Positions 5,106 through 13,811 of a stretch of 64,000 nucleotides of DNA are shown here, one piece after another (within the stretch, counting starts at the first letter, position 1; each line of letters starts with the position of its first letter). The translations under genes and the position numbers were made by a program. A model generated the notes under the pieces. The model had not been told where the DNA came from. It searched no databases and saw only the letters and a list, made by a program, of their open reading frames with translations. The stretch spans positions 129,518-193,517 of the forward strand of contig JAUVXD010000001.1 of the NCBI GenBank assembly GCA_030603805.1, in the 5' to 3' direction. The DNA comes from Acholeplasmataceae bacterium (GTDB lineage: Bacteria > Bacillota_I > Bacilli_A > Acholeplasmatales > Acholeplasmataceae).

Positions 5106-6160
5106 GAGTTTGCCTCCTTTAGGACTTGAATTTGCTTTGGATTTAATTTTTTCAAAACTGTAAATAGCATTTTCTTAGCAGCAGCTAAATCTCTGGTGTC
5201 CATCATCGCAGCTGTTGAGTGAATATATCTTGCAGGTAGTCCAATCGTTGTTGCAAGAATTCCTTGATGCATATCTAAGGCTTTGGCAGCATCTGTGCCC
5301 CCTAAAGACATAAAATGTTGGTAAGGAATGTGGTGTTTCTTAGCCACATTGACAAAGAAATTGAGTAATCCTTGGTGCATGATATTTTTAGGGTCATACA
5401 TCCGAATTAGAAAGCCTTTACCAAGTCCACCCATTGCATCCTTATCCAATGCATCATTGACTGGTGATGCATCAAGTGCAATAAAGATATCAGGCATAAA
5501 TTGATTAACAGAGGTTTCTGCACCTCTGAGTCCCACTTCTTCTTGAACGGTAGCGCCGCAAACCAAAGTAAAGGGGAGTTCAATATCATGAAACTTTTCA
5601 ATGGTTTCTAAAGCAAGGCCACATCCATATCGGTTATCAATCGATTTTGCAATCAAGCGATATGGATTTTTAGTTTGAGCGAAAGGATTATCAAATAAAA
5701 TCATATCTCCTAAGCGCACACCATAACTTAACGCTTCTTCTTTACTCGAGGCACCTATATCTAAAATTAATTCAGAAATCGCTGTATTTTGTTCCTTCTT
5801 TAAATGTGGTGGAATCCCACCAACCACACCTTTAATGACACCAGATGTTGTATGGACATTTAACACTTGAGAAACAAAGATTTCTCCATTGAGTCCACCG
5901 ATATTTTGCATTTTAATCATGCCTTGTTCTGTGATTGCAACAACCATTAAACCAACTTCATCCATATGACCTGCAACCATGACGACAGGTGCATTTGGAT
6001 CTTTTGCTTTTTTAATGGCGAAAATAGAACCCAAACGGTCTGTTTCAATTTGGAAATTTGGATATTTTTCCATAAATTTGCGCATATAATCTCTGACCTT
6101 ATGCTCATATCCGCTGGTCCCCTCAAGGTTAAATAAATCTGTGTAAAGTTTTCTAATCAT
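5102..6160 (-). CDS. M42 family metallo-aminopeptidase
   Basis: A 352-residue zinc or cobalt aminopeptidase of the tetrahedral TET type (glutamyl/deblocking aminopeptidase, formerly annotated as endoglucanase). Metal and catalytic motifs are in order: GHMDEVGLMV, SIDNRYGCG, VQEEVGLRGA, LDASP and the late IHSTAAM. The length is typical. It overlaps trmB by 8 bases upstream and the aldo/keto reductase by 4 bases downstream. It probably trims peptides in the cytoplasm, in line with a scavenging lifestyle (inference). Confidence 0.95.
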   Translation of the reverse strand: MIRKLYTDLFNLEGTSGYEHKVRDYMRKFMEKYPNFQIETDRLGSIFAIKKAKDPNAPVVMVAGHMDEVGLMVVAITEQGMIKMQNIGGLNGEIFVSQVLNVHTTSGVIKGVVGGIPPHLKKEQNTAISELILDIGASSKEEALSYGVRLGDMILFDNPFAQTKNPYRLIAKSIDNRYGCGLALETIEKFHDIELPFTLVCGATVQEEVGLRGAETSVNQFMPDIFIALDASPVNDALDKDAMGGLGKGFLIRMYDPKNIMHQGLLNFFVNVAKKHHIPYQHFMSLGGTDAAKALDMHQGILATTIGLPARYIHSTAAMMDTRDLAAAKKMLFTVLKKLNPKQIQVLKEANS

Positions 6161-6761
6161 GTTTTCTTACCCTCCCTGTTAGCTGATAAATGGGTCCTAT
6201 TTGTCGTTTTTTGACCTCGTACTCGGTCATATATGTCGATTCTGGTAAATCGAGATTGCAATCCATAATATCAAATGCACTTTCCATGGTTTCAATACTG
6301 TCATGAAAAAAATCGACGTGATCAGTTCGAAACTGGATGAATGCACCTTCTTTTAAAATGTGTTGATAAGTGGATAGAAAACTTGGTGCTGTTAGTCTTC
6401 TTTTATGATGTCTCTTTTTCGGCCAGGGGTCAGAGAAATTTAAGTAGATGCCATCTATAACCGAAGACTCAAAATAAAGATCTAGGTTTTCTGCATCACC
6501 TAAAATAATCATCAAATTATCGAGCTTAAGCTCATTTTTCTTCTCTAAAATGCGATAGCAAACATTAATGTTCATTTCCATCGCAATCCATAACTCTTCT
6601 GGATGATTTAAAGCCTTTGCGGCAATAAATTGACCCTTACCACTTCCAATCTCAAGATATGTTTTTCGGTTAGGATCCAGTTCGATTAAATTGGGGCTGA
6701 TGTTGACACCATAAGCACTTAAAAGCTCAGGCGTTGCGTATTTCACCTTTTTTTGTCTCAT
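6153..6761 (-). CDS. trmB: tRNA (guanine46-N7)-methyltransferase
   Basis: Makes m7G46 in the variable loop of tRNAs. The 202-residue protein has the SAM-binding EIGSGKGQF and the family signature NFSDPWPKKRHHKRRL, followed by the conserved FRTD. The SD before ATG is weak. It is the first gene of the operon with the peptidase and reductase, 66 bases downstream of ptsH. The unrelated TrmB-family regulator at 16.2 kb only shares the name. Confidence 0.96.
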   Translation of the reverse strand: MRQKKVKYATPELLSAYGVNISPNLIELDPNRKTYLEIGSGKGQFIAAKALNHPEELWIAMEMNINVCYRILEKKNELKLDNLMIILGDAENLDLYFESSVIDGIYLNFSDPWPKKRHHKRRLTAPSFLSTYQHILKEGAFIQFRTDHVDFFHDSIETMESAFDIMDCNLDLPESTYMTEYEVKKRQIGPIYQLTGRVRKHD

Positions 6762-6776
6762 AGGGTTTATGTATAA

Positions 6777-6805
6777 AACTAAAGCGGCAGCATAACCACC
6801 ACTTT
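6777..6805 (-). terminator. Possible weak terminator after ptsH
   Basis: A 7-bp stem with one G-T pair (6799-6805 with 6781-6787) and an 11-base loop is followed by only four consecutive T. Readthrough into trmB is likely. Confidence 0.35.
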
Positions 6806-6827: not shown

Positions 6828-7097
6828 TTAAGCCAATCTGCCAAGCCCTTCGTTCAAGATAAAATCTGTTAAAGCTTCAATCGCTTTCTCAGAATCACTA
6901 CCTGAGACAATAACTTTCACGATTTCACCTTTATAAATACCCAAGGACATTAAGCCCATAATGGATTTTAAATTCACAGTTTTTCCCATGGCTGTTAAAT
7001 TGATGTCTGAATTAAATGTCATCGCAAGATTGACAAGTCTTGTTGCAGGTCTTGCATGAATACCATATTCCGATGTAATTAGAAATGCTTGTTCCAT
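6828..7097 (-). CDS. ptsH: Phosphocarrier protein HPr
   Basis: Relays phosphate from PEP via Enzyme I to sugar-specific EIIA proteins. The 89-residue protein has the phosphorylated histidine in GIHARPAT (His14) and the regulatory serine in LKSIMGLMSLG (Ser45), so it keeps both the transport site and the HPr kinase site. Enzyme I is not beside it. It starts 2 bases after the EIIB-like membrane protein and shares its promoter. An HPr-kinase-like protein is encoded at 48.9 kb. Confidence 0.97.
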   Translation of the reverse strand: MEQAFLITSEYGIHARPATRLVNLAMTFNSDINLTAMGKTVNLKSIMGLMSLGIYKGEIVKVIVSGSDSEKAIEALTDFILNEGLGRLA

Positions 7098-7099
7098 AA

Positions 7100-7462
7100 T
7101 TATTCCTCTCCGATGTGTTCATTCAAATATGAGACGACATCTTTCGTATGATGTTTGATGAGTATGGTCAGTTCTTTCCCTTTTAAGATGGCGGGGGACT
7201 CTAAAGATTTCAAAGTTTCTGGTTCAACCTGTTTGATATTTTTTACCGTAACTTTGAGTCTTTGATGCTCATGGCTCACAGTCTTCAAGTTGGTTTTGCC
7301 ACCTAAGGCACTTAAGAGTTTTTCCATGTAGAGGGTATCGATTTGAGTTTGCTTCTTAGGCTTTGTTTGCTTCTTGTTTTTAATAATGATGAACAAAATC
7401 AGTAACACGAAGACGATGCCAAATGCGATTAAAACATAGGGGTTAGTAAGCCATTTTGGCAT
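7100..7462 (-). CDS. Membrane-anchored EIIB-like domain protein lacking the phosphorylatable Cys
   Basis: A 120-residue protein: one transmembrane helix (about 8-28), a basic linker, then a domain (about 45-117) that follows the glucose-type PTS EIIB pattern: LLSALGGK, a short spacer, the active-site loop, then VKNIKQVEPETLKSL. Classical EIIB has HCxTRL in the loop; here it reads SHEHQRL, so Glu65 replaces the cysteine. I chose the ATG at 7462, with SD GGAGG 7 bases upstream, over a GTG 15 bases earlier that lies inside the SD region. It is co-transcribed with ptsH. A role as HPr-interacting or regulatory protein is inference. Confidence 0.8.
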   Translation of the reverse strand: MPKWLTNPYVLIAFGIVFVLLILFIIIKNKKQTKPKKQTQIDTLYMEKLLSALGGKTNLKTVSHEHQRLKVTVKNIKQVEPETLKSLESPAILKGKELTILIKHHTKDVVSYLNEHIGEE

Positions 7463-7485
7463 ATGAAATACCTCCACACATATAG

Positions 7486-7514
7486 ATTATATCTATAATT
7501 CATCTTTTTTTCAA
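7486..7514 (-). promoter_or_regulatory. SigA-type promoter of the EIIB-like-ptsH unit
   Basis: On the minus strand TTGAAA, 17 bases, then TATAAT, ending 24 bases before the start codon. It abuts the queA stop codon, and no terminator is visible after queA. Confidence 0.8.
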
Positions 7515-8531
7515 TCATTTTATCAACATTGCATCACCAAATGAGAAGAATCGATATTCTAATTCAACTGCAAGATGATAGGCTTTCTTCGTAAATTCAG
7601 TGCCTGCAAGTGCACTCACAAGCATCAATAAGGTCGATTTAGGTAAATGAAAATTCGTAATCAGTTTTGAAACGACTTTAAACTGATAACCTGGGTAGAT
7701 AAAGATACCTGTATCAAAGGTTCCAGGCATAAATTTTCCATTAAAATTACTTTCAAGAGTTCTCAGTGATGTGGTTCCCACACAAACAATTTTTTTACCT
7801 AAGGATAAGGCATGGTTCAATCTGTTTGCACTCTCTATGGGCATGGTATAGGTTTCTTCATGCATATGATGATCCCTTATGTTTTCTGCTTGAACAGGTT
7901 TAAACGTACCAAGGCCGACATTTAATGTGATTGGAATGATGTCTATGCCTTTTGCTTTAACTTTCTTTAGCAGTTCCTTGGTGAAATGTAGTCCTGCAGT
8001 CGGTGCTGCAGCACTCCCTGGATCTTTGGCATAAACCGTTTGATATCGATTTTGATCTTTTAGCTGTTCTGTAATATAAGGTGGGAGTGGCATGGTGCCA
8101 AGCGCTTGTAAAATCTCGATAAAAATACCCTCATAATGCATTTGAAACACACGAATGCCTTCATCTTTAATCCCGATACATTCAGCTGTTAAAAGGGTGG
8201 AGAACTTGATTTTTGACCCAATTTTCACGCGTTTCGCAGGTTTTGTCATGGCTTCCCATATGTTTTTTTGAGTTTCTTTAAGTAAGAGAACTTCAATGGC
8301 TGCATCTGTATCTGTTTTTGAGCCTAATAGACGTGCAGGCAGTACCTTGGTATCATTAATGACAAGCACATCTTGATCATCAAGTTCATCTAAAATATCA
8401 TAAAAATGCTTATGATGAATCGTTTCATCACATCGATTTAAAACCATCAGTCTAGAGTGGTCTCTTTTTTCTGAAGGATGTTGTGCAATCCTATCTTTGG
8501 GTAGGTAAAAATCAAAATCACTAACTTTCAT
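7515..8531 (-). CDS. queA: S-adenosylmethionine:tRNA ribosyltransferase-isomerase
   Basis: Adds the epoxycyclopentanediol precursor from SAM to 7-aminomethyl-7-deazaguanine in tRNA (queuosine pathway). The 338-residue protein starts [18 protein letters not shown], and has RDHSRLMVL, the PTAGLHF motif and VGLGTFKPV. The ATG at 8531 is preferred over an upstream TTG; it overlaps the last codons of ruvB by 11 bases, so translation is coupled. The ruvA-ruvB-queA order is common in Firmicutes. Confidence 0.96.
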
Positions 8532-9537
8532 CTTCAAATAATCCTTTATAGTATTTAATGCCTAAAGCTTCATAGGCTTTTTGTGTGGCAACTCTGCCAC
8601 GGGCAGTACGTTTAATATAACCTTCCATGAGTAAATAAGGTTCGTAAACGTCTTCAACGGTCGTGATTTCTTCACTGATGGTTGCGGCTATCGATTCAAT
8701 GCCTACAGGACCTCCTGCAAACTTTTCAACGATACTTCGTAAATATCTGTAATCGGTATGATCTAGACCGTTATGATCAATACCAAGTTTGGAAAGTGCA
8801 TGATTGGTAATCTTTTCTGTTACCGTCCCATCTCCAATAATTTCTGCAAAATCTCTGACACGTCGAAAGAGACGATTGGCAATTCTTGGTGTTCCTCGAC
8901 TTCTTCTCGCAAGTGCTGTGACTGCATCACTTTCAATAGGATTATTATAAACTTTCGCCGTTCTTGAGACAATCTTCATGAGATCTTCAACTTCATAATA
9001 TGAAAGTCTTAAGACAACACCAAAACGATCTCTCAGTGGTGCAGATAAATCACCAAATCTTGTGGTTGCACCAATTAAAGTAAATGGGGGTAAATCAATA
9101 CGAATCGATCTTGAATCATGATCTTTACCAATCACAATGTCTAAGACATAATCTTCCATAGCAGCATATAAGACTTCTTCAACAAATCGAGGTAATCTGT
9201 GAATTTCATCAATAAAAAGCACATCACCAGGATTTAAAGAAGATAATACCGCAGCTAAATCACCACTGCGCTCGATTGCAGGGCCAGAGGTGATTTTGAT
9301 TTGGACACCAAGTTCATTGGCAATAATTTGTGCCAAAGTCGTTTTTCCTAAACCAGGTGGTCCATAGAGTAAGATATGATCTAAAGCTTCTTTTCTTTTA
9401 AGTGCAGCCTGAATATAGACAGAAAGCATTTCTTTAATATCTTTCTGGCCAATATATTGGTCTAAGGTTTGTGGACGAAGGGATTGATCCTCATCCTCCT
9501 TGATGGACATGGCTGTAACAATGCGTTCTTTATCCAA
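8521..9537 (-). CDS. ruvB: Holliday junction branch migration ATPase RuvB
   Basis: Hexameric AAA+ motor that drives branch migration with RuvA. The 338 residues include [13 protein letters not shown], Walker [13 protein letters not shown], Walker [10 protein letters not shown], sensor 1 GATTR, and the C-terminal winged helix. It starts at TTG, 10 bases after the ruvA stop and with AGGTGG upstream; this start gives the N-terminal length usual in the family, while the next ATG has no SD. Confidence 0.96.
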
Positions 9538-10211: not shown

Positions 10212-13200
10212 TTGAAGCTCGAATATTTGAAGTCTTTTGAGACTGAACTCAAGCAAATTTTAAGCATTGATAAAAAATACCTGCCAATCTCTAAGAAGTT
10301 GGGGGTTGTTTTGCGTGATCTTCAACCGTTCTTATCTAAAATCAATACCATTGAGAGCAAGCATAAAGAATCATTTGTCTTAGAGAGTGTGAATGTCCAT
10401 AAGACATATGCAGAGAATTTAGAAAACTATCAAAAATCATTAAAATTGATTATTGAGAAAAATAACCAAGAAGTTGAGAAGAGTCAAAAGCTCAAAGTTC
10501 AACTGACCCATGAACTGAATCATCATCTTAAGATGCAACTAGATGAACTTGATCAAAAAATTACGGTGATTCTTCAAGATTCCCAAGAAAAACTAGGGAA
10601 AGCTGATCAAACTTTAAAAAGAGAACTTGCAGCGATTCATAAGACAATGACAGAATCCAGAAAGACGTATCAAAATGTCTCGATGGAGATTGAAAAAGAA
10701 AAAGAGCTTGCAGTGACTCAACTGCGTGCAGCTTATGATCAAAAGATTGAAGCTTTAAAAATAGAACTTGAACGTAATCAAGCTGTTTATCAAGAAAAAT
10801 TATCGTCCATTAAAGCTCAAGCTTTAGTCAATACAGAAGAGCATAACGATTCTTATCTCACCATTAAAAATACGTATACTCAGCTGAGTATTTCATTAAA
10901 TAAGAAAATTAATGAGCTTAAGAAAAAACAACAAACTCTACTTGCTAATTTAGAAAAAGATCATCAAAAGGCGATTAAACCTGTGATAGAGTCGATTGAT
11001 AAACTTAAAGAAAACTATCAACTCGCCTTACAAAAATCTTTGCAAGATTATACAGAAAAACTCACAAGCCTCAATGTGATTTTTGATGTTCAAAAAACAT
11101 CGTATGAATCTAAAAAAGAACGTATTATACATGAAGGTAACGAAGCTATAACCCTATTAAACAGCAAATTATCCGCTTATAAAGAAACAATCTCAAAAGA
11201 GAAACTCACCACGTCTAGAGCACTCCGTGATGAAATGAAGTCTTTAGAAACAGATCGTGAAAAAGAAAAGAAAAATCATGATTTGACCAATCAACTTAAT
11301 GCACTCGATGCCGATTTAAATAAGCAAATTTTAAGAACCAATAAAGATATCACCGAAAAGAAAAAAGAGACCCATCGCAGGCTTTTCCAACTTGATCTTG
11401 CACATTTACGTGAAGTCAATGAATGGCGCTTAAAAAAAGTGCTTTATGAATATGAAAAAAAACAAGATACTGCAAAAATTGACCTCAACTATAACCACAA
11501 CATCAACGCATCCGAGCTACAACTCAAACTGATTGAATTTAAAAATCAAGCCGAAAAAGAGATTTTACTTCAAAAACATAATCAAGATCTTCTACCATTA
11601 GAATATCAACTCCAAATCGCTGCATCCATTCAAGAAAGAGAATTAAATCTACTCGCCAATGATGCGCATTTAAGTATCGCAACCTCTAAATTTGAGGAAA
11701 GTCAAATCGAGTACGAACTTAAAAAACAAGAGGCTTTAAGCCAATTTGAAGAAGATAAGGCTAAAGCATTATTTGGTGCAGATATGCAAGTGTTATCCAC
11801 CAACATTCAGCTAGAACTTGAAAAAGAGAAAGTCAAAAGAGACTATGTGATTGCCGAACAAGAACTTAGAATTGAGCTTAACCAAGCCATTTTTAATCGA
11901 TCTAAGCTCTTAATCGAACATGAGCAAAACCAAGAAATCTATAAAATAGAATCAGAGCGTGAGTTAATCTATATTGAAAATAGATACAAACTCGATGCCA
12001 TCAAATCCAATGCGCTTGCAGAAGAACAAAAGCGCACGTTTGTCGTGAGTGAAGCTAGATATAAACATCAACAACGACTCTCTAACGAAAAAGCGAATCG
12101 ATTATTAAAAACATACTTAAATGAACTCTCATTTAATCAACTTCAAACCGAAGATTTTATGACGGTATGTCGAAAATTTTATCAAAGTTTAACAGATTTA
12201 AAGAAAACTGCCATTGAACTTTATCATCTACCTTCACATCCTGAAGTCTTTAAAGATGTTTTAAAGATGATGAAATCCTATCTGCCACAATTTCAAGCAT
12301 CAATGATTGAAGAACTTGAGCATTATCAAGCACTCAATCAAGAAATATATGTCAATAAAATTGAGGATTTGACAGGATATAAATACATGCTAAAGCATGA
12401 AAACACCATGAATTATTACGGTCAAGAAATCGCTAAAATCAAAGAGAAAAAAGCATCAGTTGAGCGAGATATCCAATCACTTGAGGAACAGTTTTTCAAA
12501 TATCAAACAGAGCTTGAACGCAACCATGCCTTTATCAATCAACTGACGAAGATTAGTTATGAGATTAAGCATAATGAACTGAGAAGTGAACATAAACATC
12601 AGGATTTAAAGGAAAATCAAAAACTTTTATCCAATCACGAACATGAAGTCAAACGGATTAAGCAATCATTATCAAAAATTGAAAAAGATATTGATGAAAA
12701 ACACTTACTAATTGCACCACTAGACAAAGAAATTGCTTTATTATCACAAAAACAAGATTTACAAGAAAAAGAACTTGAAGTCAAAAAACATAAAGAGGCT
12801 GCTGTTTTCTACCGTTTCTTAAATAAGAATCAAAAGATTTATCAAGAACTATCGATGGATATGGCACACTTCTTAGAAAAACTTTCCTTCTTCTTCGATG
12901 CACTCTCACAAGAAGTCTATTTGACAGATACGGTCTTAAATGTTGAGATTAAGAAGTTTGAACGACATGCATCACTTTTTGAACTCAAACTTAACAGACA
13001 CCAACAAGCATTTTTAAATTTGATGCTTGAGTTCTATCACAAAAATGAAAAAGAACAAGCCATGCTCATGAAAGACTTTAAGCGCTCAACGATTGCACTG
13101 ATGAAGAGCTTAAGTCAAAACTATAATAATACCTTATCTAAAGCACTTCATGACCAAACAAAGAAAAACCATGAAGAACAAAGACAAAATCAAAATGAAA

Positions 13201-13811
13201 AGGATAAAGTCAAGAAAAAATTAGAACTCGAGATAATCTCTTATCAAAAGAAATTATCGATTGATTTATCTGTGATTAAATCATTAGAATCAAAGATTGC
13301 AGAAACTGGTGATAAAGCACTCCTTGAACTTAAGATTCTTAACGAAAACCAAATTTCAATTGCCAATCAATACCAAAATGAGCATTTGCATAAAGTCAGT
13401 ATGATGCTTGATCAATACAAAAAAACATTATCTCAAATTGAGCTAAATAAGCATCAAGCAGAAAAGAATCAACAAGGTTTAGAAAACTCATTAGAAGCTA
13501 AAAATCAAGTGATTCTAACGAAGTATCAAACCAATTATCAAAAGCATCTTTCAAATCTTAAGTCAAAAACCCTACATTACGAAGAAGAGATGGGTAAACT
13601 CAAAAAATCCATTGCTGAACGTGAAAAAGCACATGAAGAAACCTTAAAGCGCATGAATGAAAAGCGTGAAGAAGAGCTTAGAAATATCTTGTATCACTTG
13701 AAAAAGTTTACATCTTCAACAAAATCTGAACAAAATCAGGTCATGAGTAAAGAGGTTAGACTTCTTAAAAAAACGAATCGTTCTAAAATTAAAATGCTGC
13801 ATCTATCGTGA
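10212..13811 (+). CDS. Giant coiled-coil protein of unknown function
   Basis: A 1,199-residue protein, almost wholly Lys/Glu/Gln/Leu-rich heptad-type helix, with no signal peptide, membrane segment or Walker motif. The likely start is TTG: AGGAcGTGAT, nearly the full anti-SD complement, sits 6 bases upstream, and the next in-frame Met is over 100 residues in. Less charged stretches near residues 1-60 and 640-730 may be globular or hinge points. It is the only plus-strand gene in the first 46 kb, set between ruvA and obg. A cytoskeletal, scaffold or chromosome-linked role is conceivable; none can be shown. It is not SMC, since ATPase heads are missing. Confidence 0.9.
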   Translation: MKLEYLKSFETELKQILSIDKKYLPISKKLGVVLRDLQPFLSKINTIESKHKESFVLESVNVHKTYAENLENYQKSLKLIIEKNNQEVEKSQKLKVQLTHELNHHLKMQLDELDQKITVILQDSQEKLGKADQTLKRELAAIHKTMTESRKTYQNVSMEIEKEKELAVTQLRAAYDQKIEALKIELERNQAVYQEKLSSIKAQALVNTEEHNDSYLTIKNTYTQLSISLNKKINELKKKQQTLLANLEKDHQKAIKPVIESIDKLKENYQLALQKSLQDYTEKLTSLNVIFDVQKTSYESKKERIIHEGNEAITLLNSKLSAYKETISKEKLTTSRALRDEMKSLETDREKEKKNHDLTNQLNALDADLNKQILRTNKDITEKKKETHRRLFQLDLAHLREVNEWRLKKVLYEYEKKQDTAKIDLNYNHNINASELQLKLIEFKNQAEKEILLQKHNQDLLPLEYQLQIAASIQERELNLLANDAHLSIATSKFEESQIEYELKKQEALSQFEEDKAKALFGADMQVLSTNIQLELEKEKVKRDYVIAEQELRIELNQAIFNRSKLLIEHEQNQEIYKIESERELIYIENRYKLDAIKSNALAEEQKRTFVVSEARYKHQQRLSNEKANRLLKTYLNELSFNQLQTEDFMTVCRKFYQSLTDLKKTAIELYHLPSHPEVFKDVLKMMKSYLPQFQASMIEELEHYQALNQEIYVNKIEDLTGYKYMLKHENTMNYYGQEIAKIKEKKASVERDIQSLEEQFFKYQTELERNHAFINQLTKISYEIKHNELRSEHKHQDLKENQKLLSNHEHEVKRIKQSLSKIEKDIDEKHLLIAPLDKEIALLSQKQDLQEKELEVKKHKEAAVFYRFLNKNQKIYQELSMDMAHFLEKLSFFFDALSQEVYLTDTVLNVEIKKFERHASLFELKLNRHQQAFLNLMLEFYHKNEKEQAMLMKDFKRSTIALMKSLSQNYNNTLSKALHDQTKKNHEEQRQNQNEKDKVKKKLELEIISYQKKLSIDLSVIKSLESKIAETGDKALLELKILNENQISIANQYQNEHLHKVSMMLDQYKKTLSQIELNKHQAEKNQQGLENSLEAKNQVILTKYQTNYQKHLSNLKSKTLHYEEEMGKLKKSIAEREKAHEETLKRMNEKREEELRNILYHLKKFTSSTKSEQNQVMSKEVRLLKKTNRSKIKMLHLS

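Follow-up and report, generated by a model that had tools for sequence, protein, structure and literature searches.

The gene analysed here lies in a 64,000-nucleotide stretch of DNA (the window) and encodes a degenerate, membrane-tethered EIIB-like protein that, judged from its alignment, is unable to carry the usual phospho-cysteine. Family searches indicate that it is a member of an old family of small membrane-anchored EIIB-like proteins, which extends throughout the mycoplasma-related class. Sequence comparison makes it quite probable that the domain serves as a non-catalytic membrane adaptor; its identification with a binding partner of the SRP receptor FtsY, which draws on a published prediction and one crosslink for a mycoplasma protein, is more tentative. 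We give an even chance to the whole explanation, i.e., a catalytically dead, membrane-anchored EIIB-fold adaptor (pseudo-EIIB) with FtsY as its most likely partner.

The EIIB-like gene and ptsH form an apparent two-gene unit

The features of the locus are collected in Table 1. A GGAGG motif 8 nt 5′ of the ATG renders the alternative 125-aa reading from a GTG at 7477, given in the list of open reading frames, less likely. The TTGAAA-17-TATAAT element is the top promoter-like match of the region in a consensus scan, whose 26 matches overall compare with 18.7 expected and which therefore lends consensus-level support only. Together with ptsH, which encodes HPr, and the hairpin behind it, the element and the EIIB-like gene look like a two-gene unit, in which the promoter and the terminator are consensus matches only. 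The operon with ptsH that an earlier note on this DNA had claimed is thus borne out by the 2-nt gap, the promoter-like site before the pair and the terminator-like hairpin after it. Divergent from ruvA lies a 1199-residue ORF (window 10212-13811, plus strand), whose sequence suggests a very long coiled-coil protein.

Table 1 Features of the EIIB-like locus (window positions)
Feature	Position	Strand	Basis or remark
EIIB-like CDS, 120 aa	7100..7462	-	Starts at ATG 7462, with GGAGG 8 nt before it; TAA stop at 7102-7100
Single TM helix, residues 8-30	7373..7441	-	AF2 helix and sequence
Glucose-type EIIB-like domain, residues 43-118	7109..7336	-	PF00367; profile search against PDB sequences; Foldseek
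Glu65 codon GAG, at the phospho-Cys position (Cys421 of E. coli PtsG)	7268..7270	-	Alignments
Codon of Arg68, which corresponds to Arg424 in E. coli EIIB-Glc	7259..7261	-	Alignments
Promoter-like TTGAAA-17-TATAAT, 5′ of the EIIB-like gene	7486..7514	-	11/12; consensus scan
ptsH (HPr, 89 aa)	6828..7097	-	PF00381, E 1.8e-27; begins 2 nt past the EIIB-like stop
Phosphorylatable His of the adjoining HPr	codon 7056-7058	-	Present
Ser46 equivalent of the adjoining HPr	codon 6963-6965	-	Present
Terminator-like hairpin, 11 pairs and T-rich tail, 3′ of ptsH	6781..6805	-	Consensus scan
queA, conserved as the upstream neighbour throughout the family; ruvB and ruvA behind it	7515..8537	-	Named from sequence; synteny
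trmB-type tRNA methyltransferase gene, downstream neighbour	6153..6761	-	Named from sequence; synteny

The protein is predicted to carry a single-helix anchor and a glucose-type EIIB fold

The AF2 model of the protein (mean pLDDT 87.8) contains one TM helix, followed by a Lys-rich linker that would place the remainder in the cytoplasm by the positive-inside rule, and an α/β domain that begins at residue 43. As a single sequence, the protein matches Pfam PF00367 with an E-value of 2.6e-5 and 24 bits, slightly below the curated cut-off of 27 bits, and the NCBIfam glucose-PTS models with E-values down to 7e-7, covering part of the model length. A profile of 30 relatives retrieved E. coli EIIB-Glc along the full length of the domain with E-values of 2e-10 to 4e-10 (76 positions at E 2.4e-10), and Foldseek superposed the AF2 model onto the EIIB-Glc structures 3bp3, 1o2f and 3bp8 with target-normalised TM-scores of 0.81-0.84. 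The similarity exceeds chance, and the modelled fold is that of glucose-type EIIB. Both the EIIB pattern and the single-helix anchor that had been read from the letters therefore stand, the single-sequence match to PF00367 being backed by the family-profile match to EIIB-Glc. The position behind ruvAB-queA and the one N-terminal TM helix had also brought YajC into consideration; this identity was rejected, as the Pfam YajC match (E 0.13) covers the TM helix and linker only and the EIIB match is far better.

The position of the phospho-cysteine is occupied by glutamate

Alignment of the loop SHEHQRLK with DACITRLR of E. coli EIIB-Glc pairs Glu65 with Cys421, Arg68 with Arg424 and Lys70 with Arg426. 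The Glu of SHEHQRL, which the earlier note had proposed to stand in place of the phosphorylated Cys, falls exactly on that position. Among 97 small members of the family, the phospho-Cys column holds E in 45, D in 13, K and N in 9 each, S and T in 6 each, V in 4, I in 3 and C in 2; thus, 95 of the 97 lack the Cys, and realignment restores none, whereas 13 of 15 permeases carry it. The Arg68 column is R in 30/30 sequences of the alignment A1 and in 85/97 of the family, while the equivalent of Arg426 is usually Lys. All 19 sequences of the source genus share an invariant E-H-Q-R loop between variable flanks. The family thus resembles the EIIB of glucose permeases (E. coli PtsG; PF00367, TIGR00826) in fold, in the core residues G-N-R and in the order of elements, and differs from it by the absent phospho-Cys, the usual Lys for Arg426 and a one-helix anchor instead of a fusion to EIIC. 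Among open-licence papers, we found none that reports this loss of Cys, which is weak evidence.

The earlier note had also suggested that the Glu might mimic the phosphorylated state. The acidic residue found in 39 of 48 members of the same order, and invariant in the genus, speaks for such a mimic, which a family-wide reading loses with K, N, S, T, V or I in 37/97 members. A universal phosphomimic is thereby ruled out, and the idea, as judged from these columns, fits only some lineages.

A class-wide family with a single predicted loss of the cysteine

Homologues were present in 39 of 41 genomes in a search of relatives. A class-wide search gave matches in 269 of 296 genomes, some of them permease EIIBs, and a phylum-wide draw gave matches in 225 of 245, all from the same class and again including true permease EIIBs. 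In the nearest genomes the order ruvB-queA-EIIBlike-ptsH-trmB-M42 peptidase recurs, and in more distant ones the EIIBlike-ptsH pair; a scan for related loci reached only two close relatives. Outside the taxonomic order, none of the shared neighbours (Maf, transketolase, NAD kinase, FtsW and others) was consistent as a functional hint. Five phytoplasma-like genomes (g21) are without a credible family member, which would make the adaptor role dispensable there if FtsY is kept. Five loci were excluded as probable fragments of permeases, namely L080, L087, L092 and L100 (short frames in Spiroplasma-like genomes) and L088 (a frame at a contig edge).

The tree was built without the phospho-Cys column, and the 75-residue domain gives it poor resolution with many forks unresolved. 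A branch with an SH-aLRT of 95 has the Cys-less members on one side; among the small members also falls L096, a permease that lacks the Cys and whose own branch is very long. Two small Cys-bearing proteins, L138 and L081, group with the permeases, and the earliest-branching Cys-less members (L105-L108 and L137) all carry Glu. We infer from this topology that the Cys gave way, probably to Glu, in a single event at the root of the family and that the position drifted thereafter. L138 (G093) is a small Cys-bearing EIIB that apparently has two TM segments and adjoins ptsH; it possibly represents an ancestral form of the pair.

The lost catalytic Cys, the usual Lys in place of Arg426 and the missing transporter domain would also suit the remnant of a lost glucose permease, decaying and without function. 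Such a remnant is hardly credible, given that most sampled loci throughout the class have an intact frame and a preserved domain core, that the EHQR loop is invariant in the genus and that the gene has its own promoter-like site.

Relation to HPr and the PTS across genomes

Of the 95 members sampled, 53 form a tight pair with ptsH, the gap having a median of -1 nt. So close a pairing in roughly half of the sample points towards a role connected with HPr, for which FtsY binding does not account by itself. In the HPr-linked form of such a role, the pseudo-EIIB would bind HPr at the membrane according to the phosphorylation of His15 or Ser46 and relay the carbon status to a membrane partner, with Glu or Asp imitating phospho-Cys. 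We regard it as unlikely, although several observations beyond the pairing are in its favour. An acidic residue stands at the Cys position in 45 of the 53 ptsH-paired members as opposed to 13 of the 42 unpaired ones (raw Fisher p 8e-8). In a phylogeny-aware test, however, this association loses its significance, with no more than 3 independent pairs behind it, and we rejected it as proof of a role with HPr. Ser46 is kept in all 65 HPrs at family loci, also where His15 is lost: the HPrs paired at L102 and L104, each the sole HPr found in its genome (G133 and G153), have Gln for His15, and that at L071 has Cys. Thus, it is not phosphotransfer that keeps the pair together.

Crh of B. subtilis likewise has Gln for His15 and keeps Ser46. 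This likeness, which counts in favour of the HPr-linked adaptor, belongs to the HPrs of L102 and L104 and not to the EIIB-like protein; the HPr of the source locus is unlike Crh in that its His and Ser46 sites are both present. Also against the HPr-linked adaptor is that EIIB in the textbook PTS docks EIIA and EIIC, not HPr.

Counterevidence also comes from genomes without HPr. Nineteen of the 95 sampled members reside in genomes without any HPr gene, in which the pseudo-EIIB is nevertheless kept; all of these genomes are at least 93% complete except G020 (77%). In G021, a one-contig genome of 99% completeness, neither an HPr nor an EI/PPDK-type match was found, and the EIIB-like gene remains between queA and trmB with ptsH gone. 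In addition, only 6 of the 40 genomes searched have EIIA-Glc, the natural partner of this type of EIIB. The HPr/EIIA docking sensor put forward by the earlier note thus cannot be the general function of the protein. Five genomes of family f3 of the order (G030, G033, G035, G037 and G039) have EI-like proteins of only ~500 aa with weaker EI scores.

The PTS inventory of the source genome

The source genome contains three HPr genes. Besides the one at the EIIB-like locus, HPr-2 lies with a lone EIIA-Glc, a GntR-type regulator and EI (ptsI) in a locus without EIIB or EIIC (L168:4507-7644; G000 C34), and the third lies between tpiA and a cupin-type regulator, near pgk (L169:1626-1871; G000 C20); gene names given here without a family search were read from the sequences. 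The genome also has a fructose-type set of EIIA, EIIB and EIIC, in which the usual Cys is intact. We found no other glucose-type EIIB in this genome and no EIIC-Glc, the sole EIIC-family match belonging to the fructose-type set.

This inventory bears on two further explanations. The domain might bind and regulate the lone EIIA-Glc as a decoy or partner, passing no phosphate onward. Lacking a second EIIB-Glc, a genome in which EIIA-Glc stands with ptsI and the second ptsH would accommodate this, but the absence of EIIA-Glc from 34 of the 40 genomes searched makes it improbable for the protein. Alternatively, the domain might remain an active phosphocarrier that uses another residue and serves a transporter in trans. 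His66 and Glu65, invariant in the 19 genus sequences, would be candidate residues, and the fructose-type set a recipient; neither is conserved across the wider family, however, and with no EIIC-Glc or other EIIB-Glc partner at hand and the fructose system having its own EIIB, we consider this very improbable.

The mycoplasma protein MG_129 and FtsY as a candidate partner

A single-TM, Cys-less, EIIB-like protein encoded outside permease genes is of the type of MG_129 and MPN_268, and the protein of the source genome fits this type. The ORF 156,214-156,573 of genome G345, which we take, by its position, to be MG_129 of M. genitalium, matches the family profile with an E-value of 1.2e-16; Thr occupies its Cys position, and Gln replaces the Arg. 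MG_129 and MPN_268, known as 'orphan PTS EIIB protein', resemble the family in being small, in their single TM helix and Cys-less loop, and in not being fused to a permease. MG_129 differs from the source protein in its Thr for Glu and Gln for Arg, and in that ptsH (MG_041) lies elsewhere in the M. genitalium genome.

A 2026 study employing pooled AlphaFold3 predictions (PMC13047044) reports, in the parts drawn on here, a predicted MG_129-FtsY complex with an ipTM of 0.496 and a PtsH-FtsY complex at a separate interface with an ipTM of 0.317, and cites one FtsY-MPN_268 crosslink that spans 33.4 Å. The same parts state that M. genitalium has no lone EIIC or EIIA, and they term MG_129 a PTS EIIB with no mention of the Cys loss.

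In the explanation that we prefer, a Cys-bearing tethered EIIB beside ptsH would have lost its Cys at the family base, and the domain would now bind proteins on the cytoplasmic side as a membrane-held module, outside PTS phosphotransfer, with FtsY as its most likely partner. The pairing with ptsH suggests that HPr ancestrally modulated the adaptor function or took part in it, as it may to this day wherever the two genes have stayed together. Two observations, the persistence of the family where the PTS is absent and its independent and ancient pairing with ptsH, agree better with the FtsY proposal than with a PTS sensor and lead us to favour a non-catalytic membrane adaptor. FtsY itself we name with some reserve, at somewhat less than an even chance, since the link consists of a modest-confidence prediction and a single crosslink, both for the mycoplasma protein. 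An extension, to which we attach only a slim chance, would have the pseudo-EIIB anchor, with HPr where paired, dock FtsY and couple the carbon or energy state to membrane-protein targeting, PTS-less lineages keeping the anchoring alone.

The 'orphan PTS EIIB' of minimal genomes would accordingly be a member of a class-wide family that lost its catalytic residue family-wide and is kept without a PTS, and this retention makes a role outside the PTS testable. The ancient pairing with ptsH would add genomic evidence for a link between FtsY, PtsH and MG_129 that has so far been based on structure prediction. If true, a domain of the PTS had already been co-opted for the targeting of membrane proteins before the mycoplasma genomes were reduced.

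EIIB-like domains with roles other than transport are known from the Mga/AtxA regulators (PCVRs), in which EIIB-Gat-like domains, some of them Cys-less (Type I Mga), serve protein contacts (PMC11537053). Unlike the present family, these are galactitol-type domains inside DNA-binding regulators and not membrane proteins. In the source genome, the FtsY ORF is short (320 aa); counting against the FtsY link, its gene does not adjoin the EIIB-like gene.
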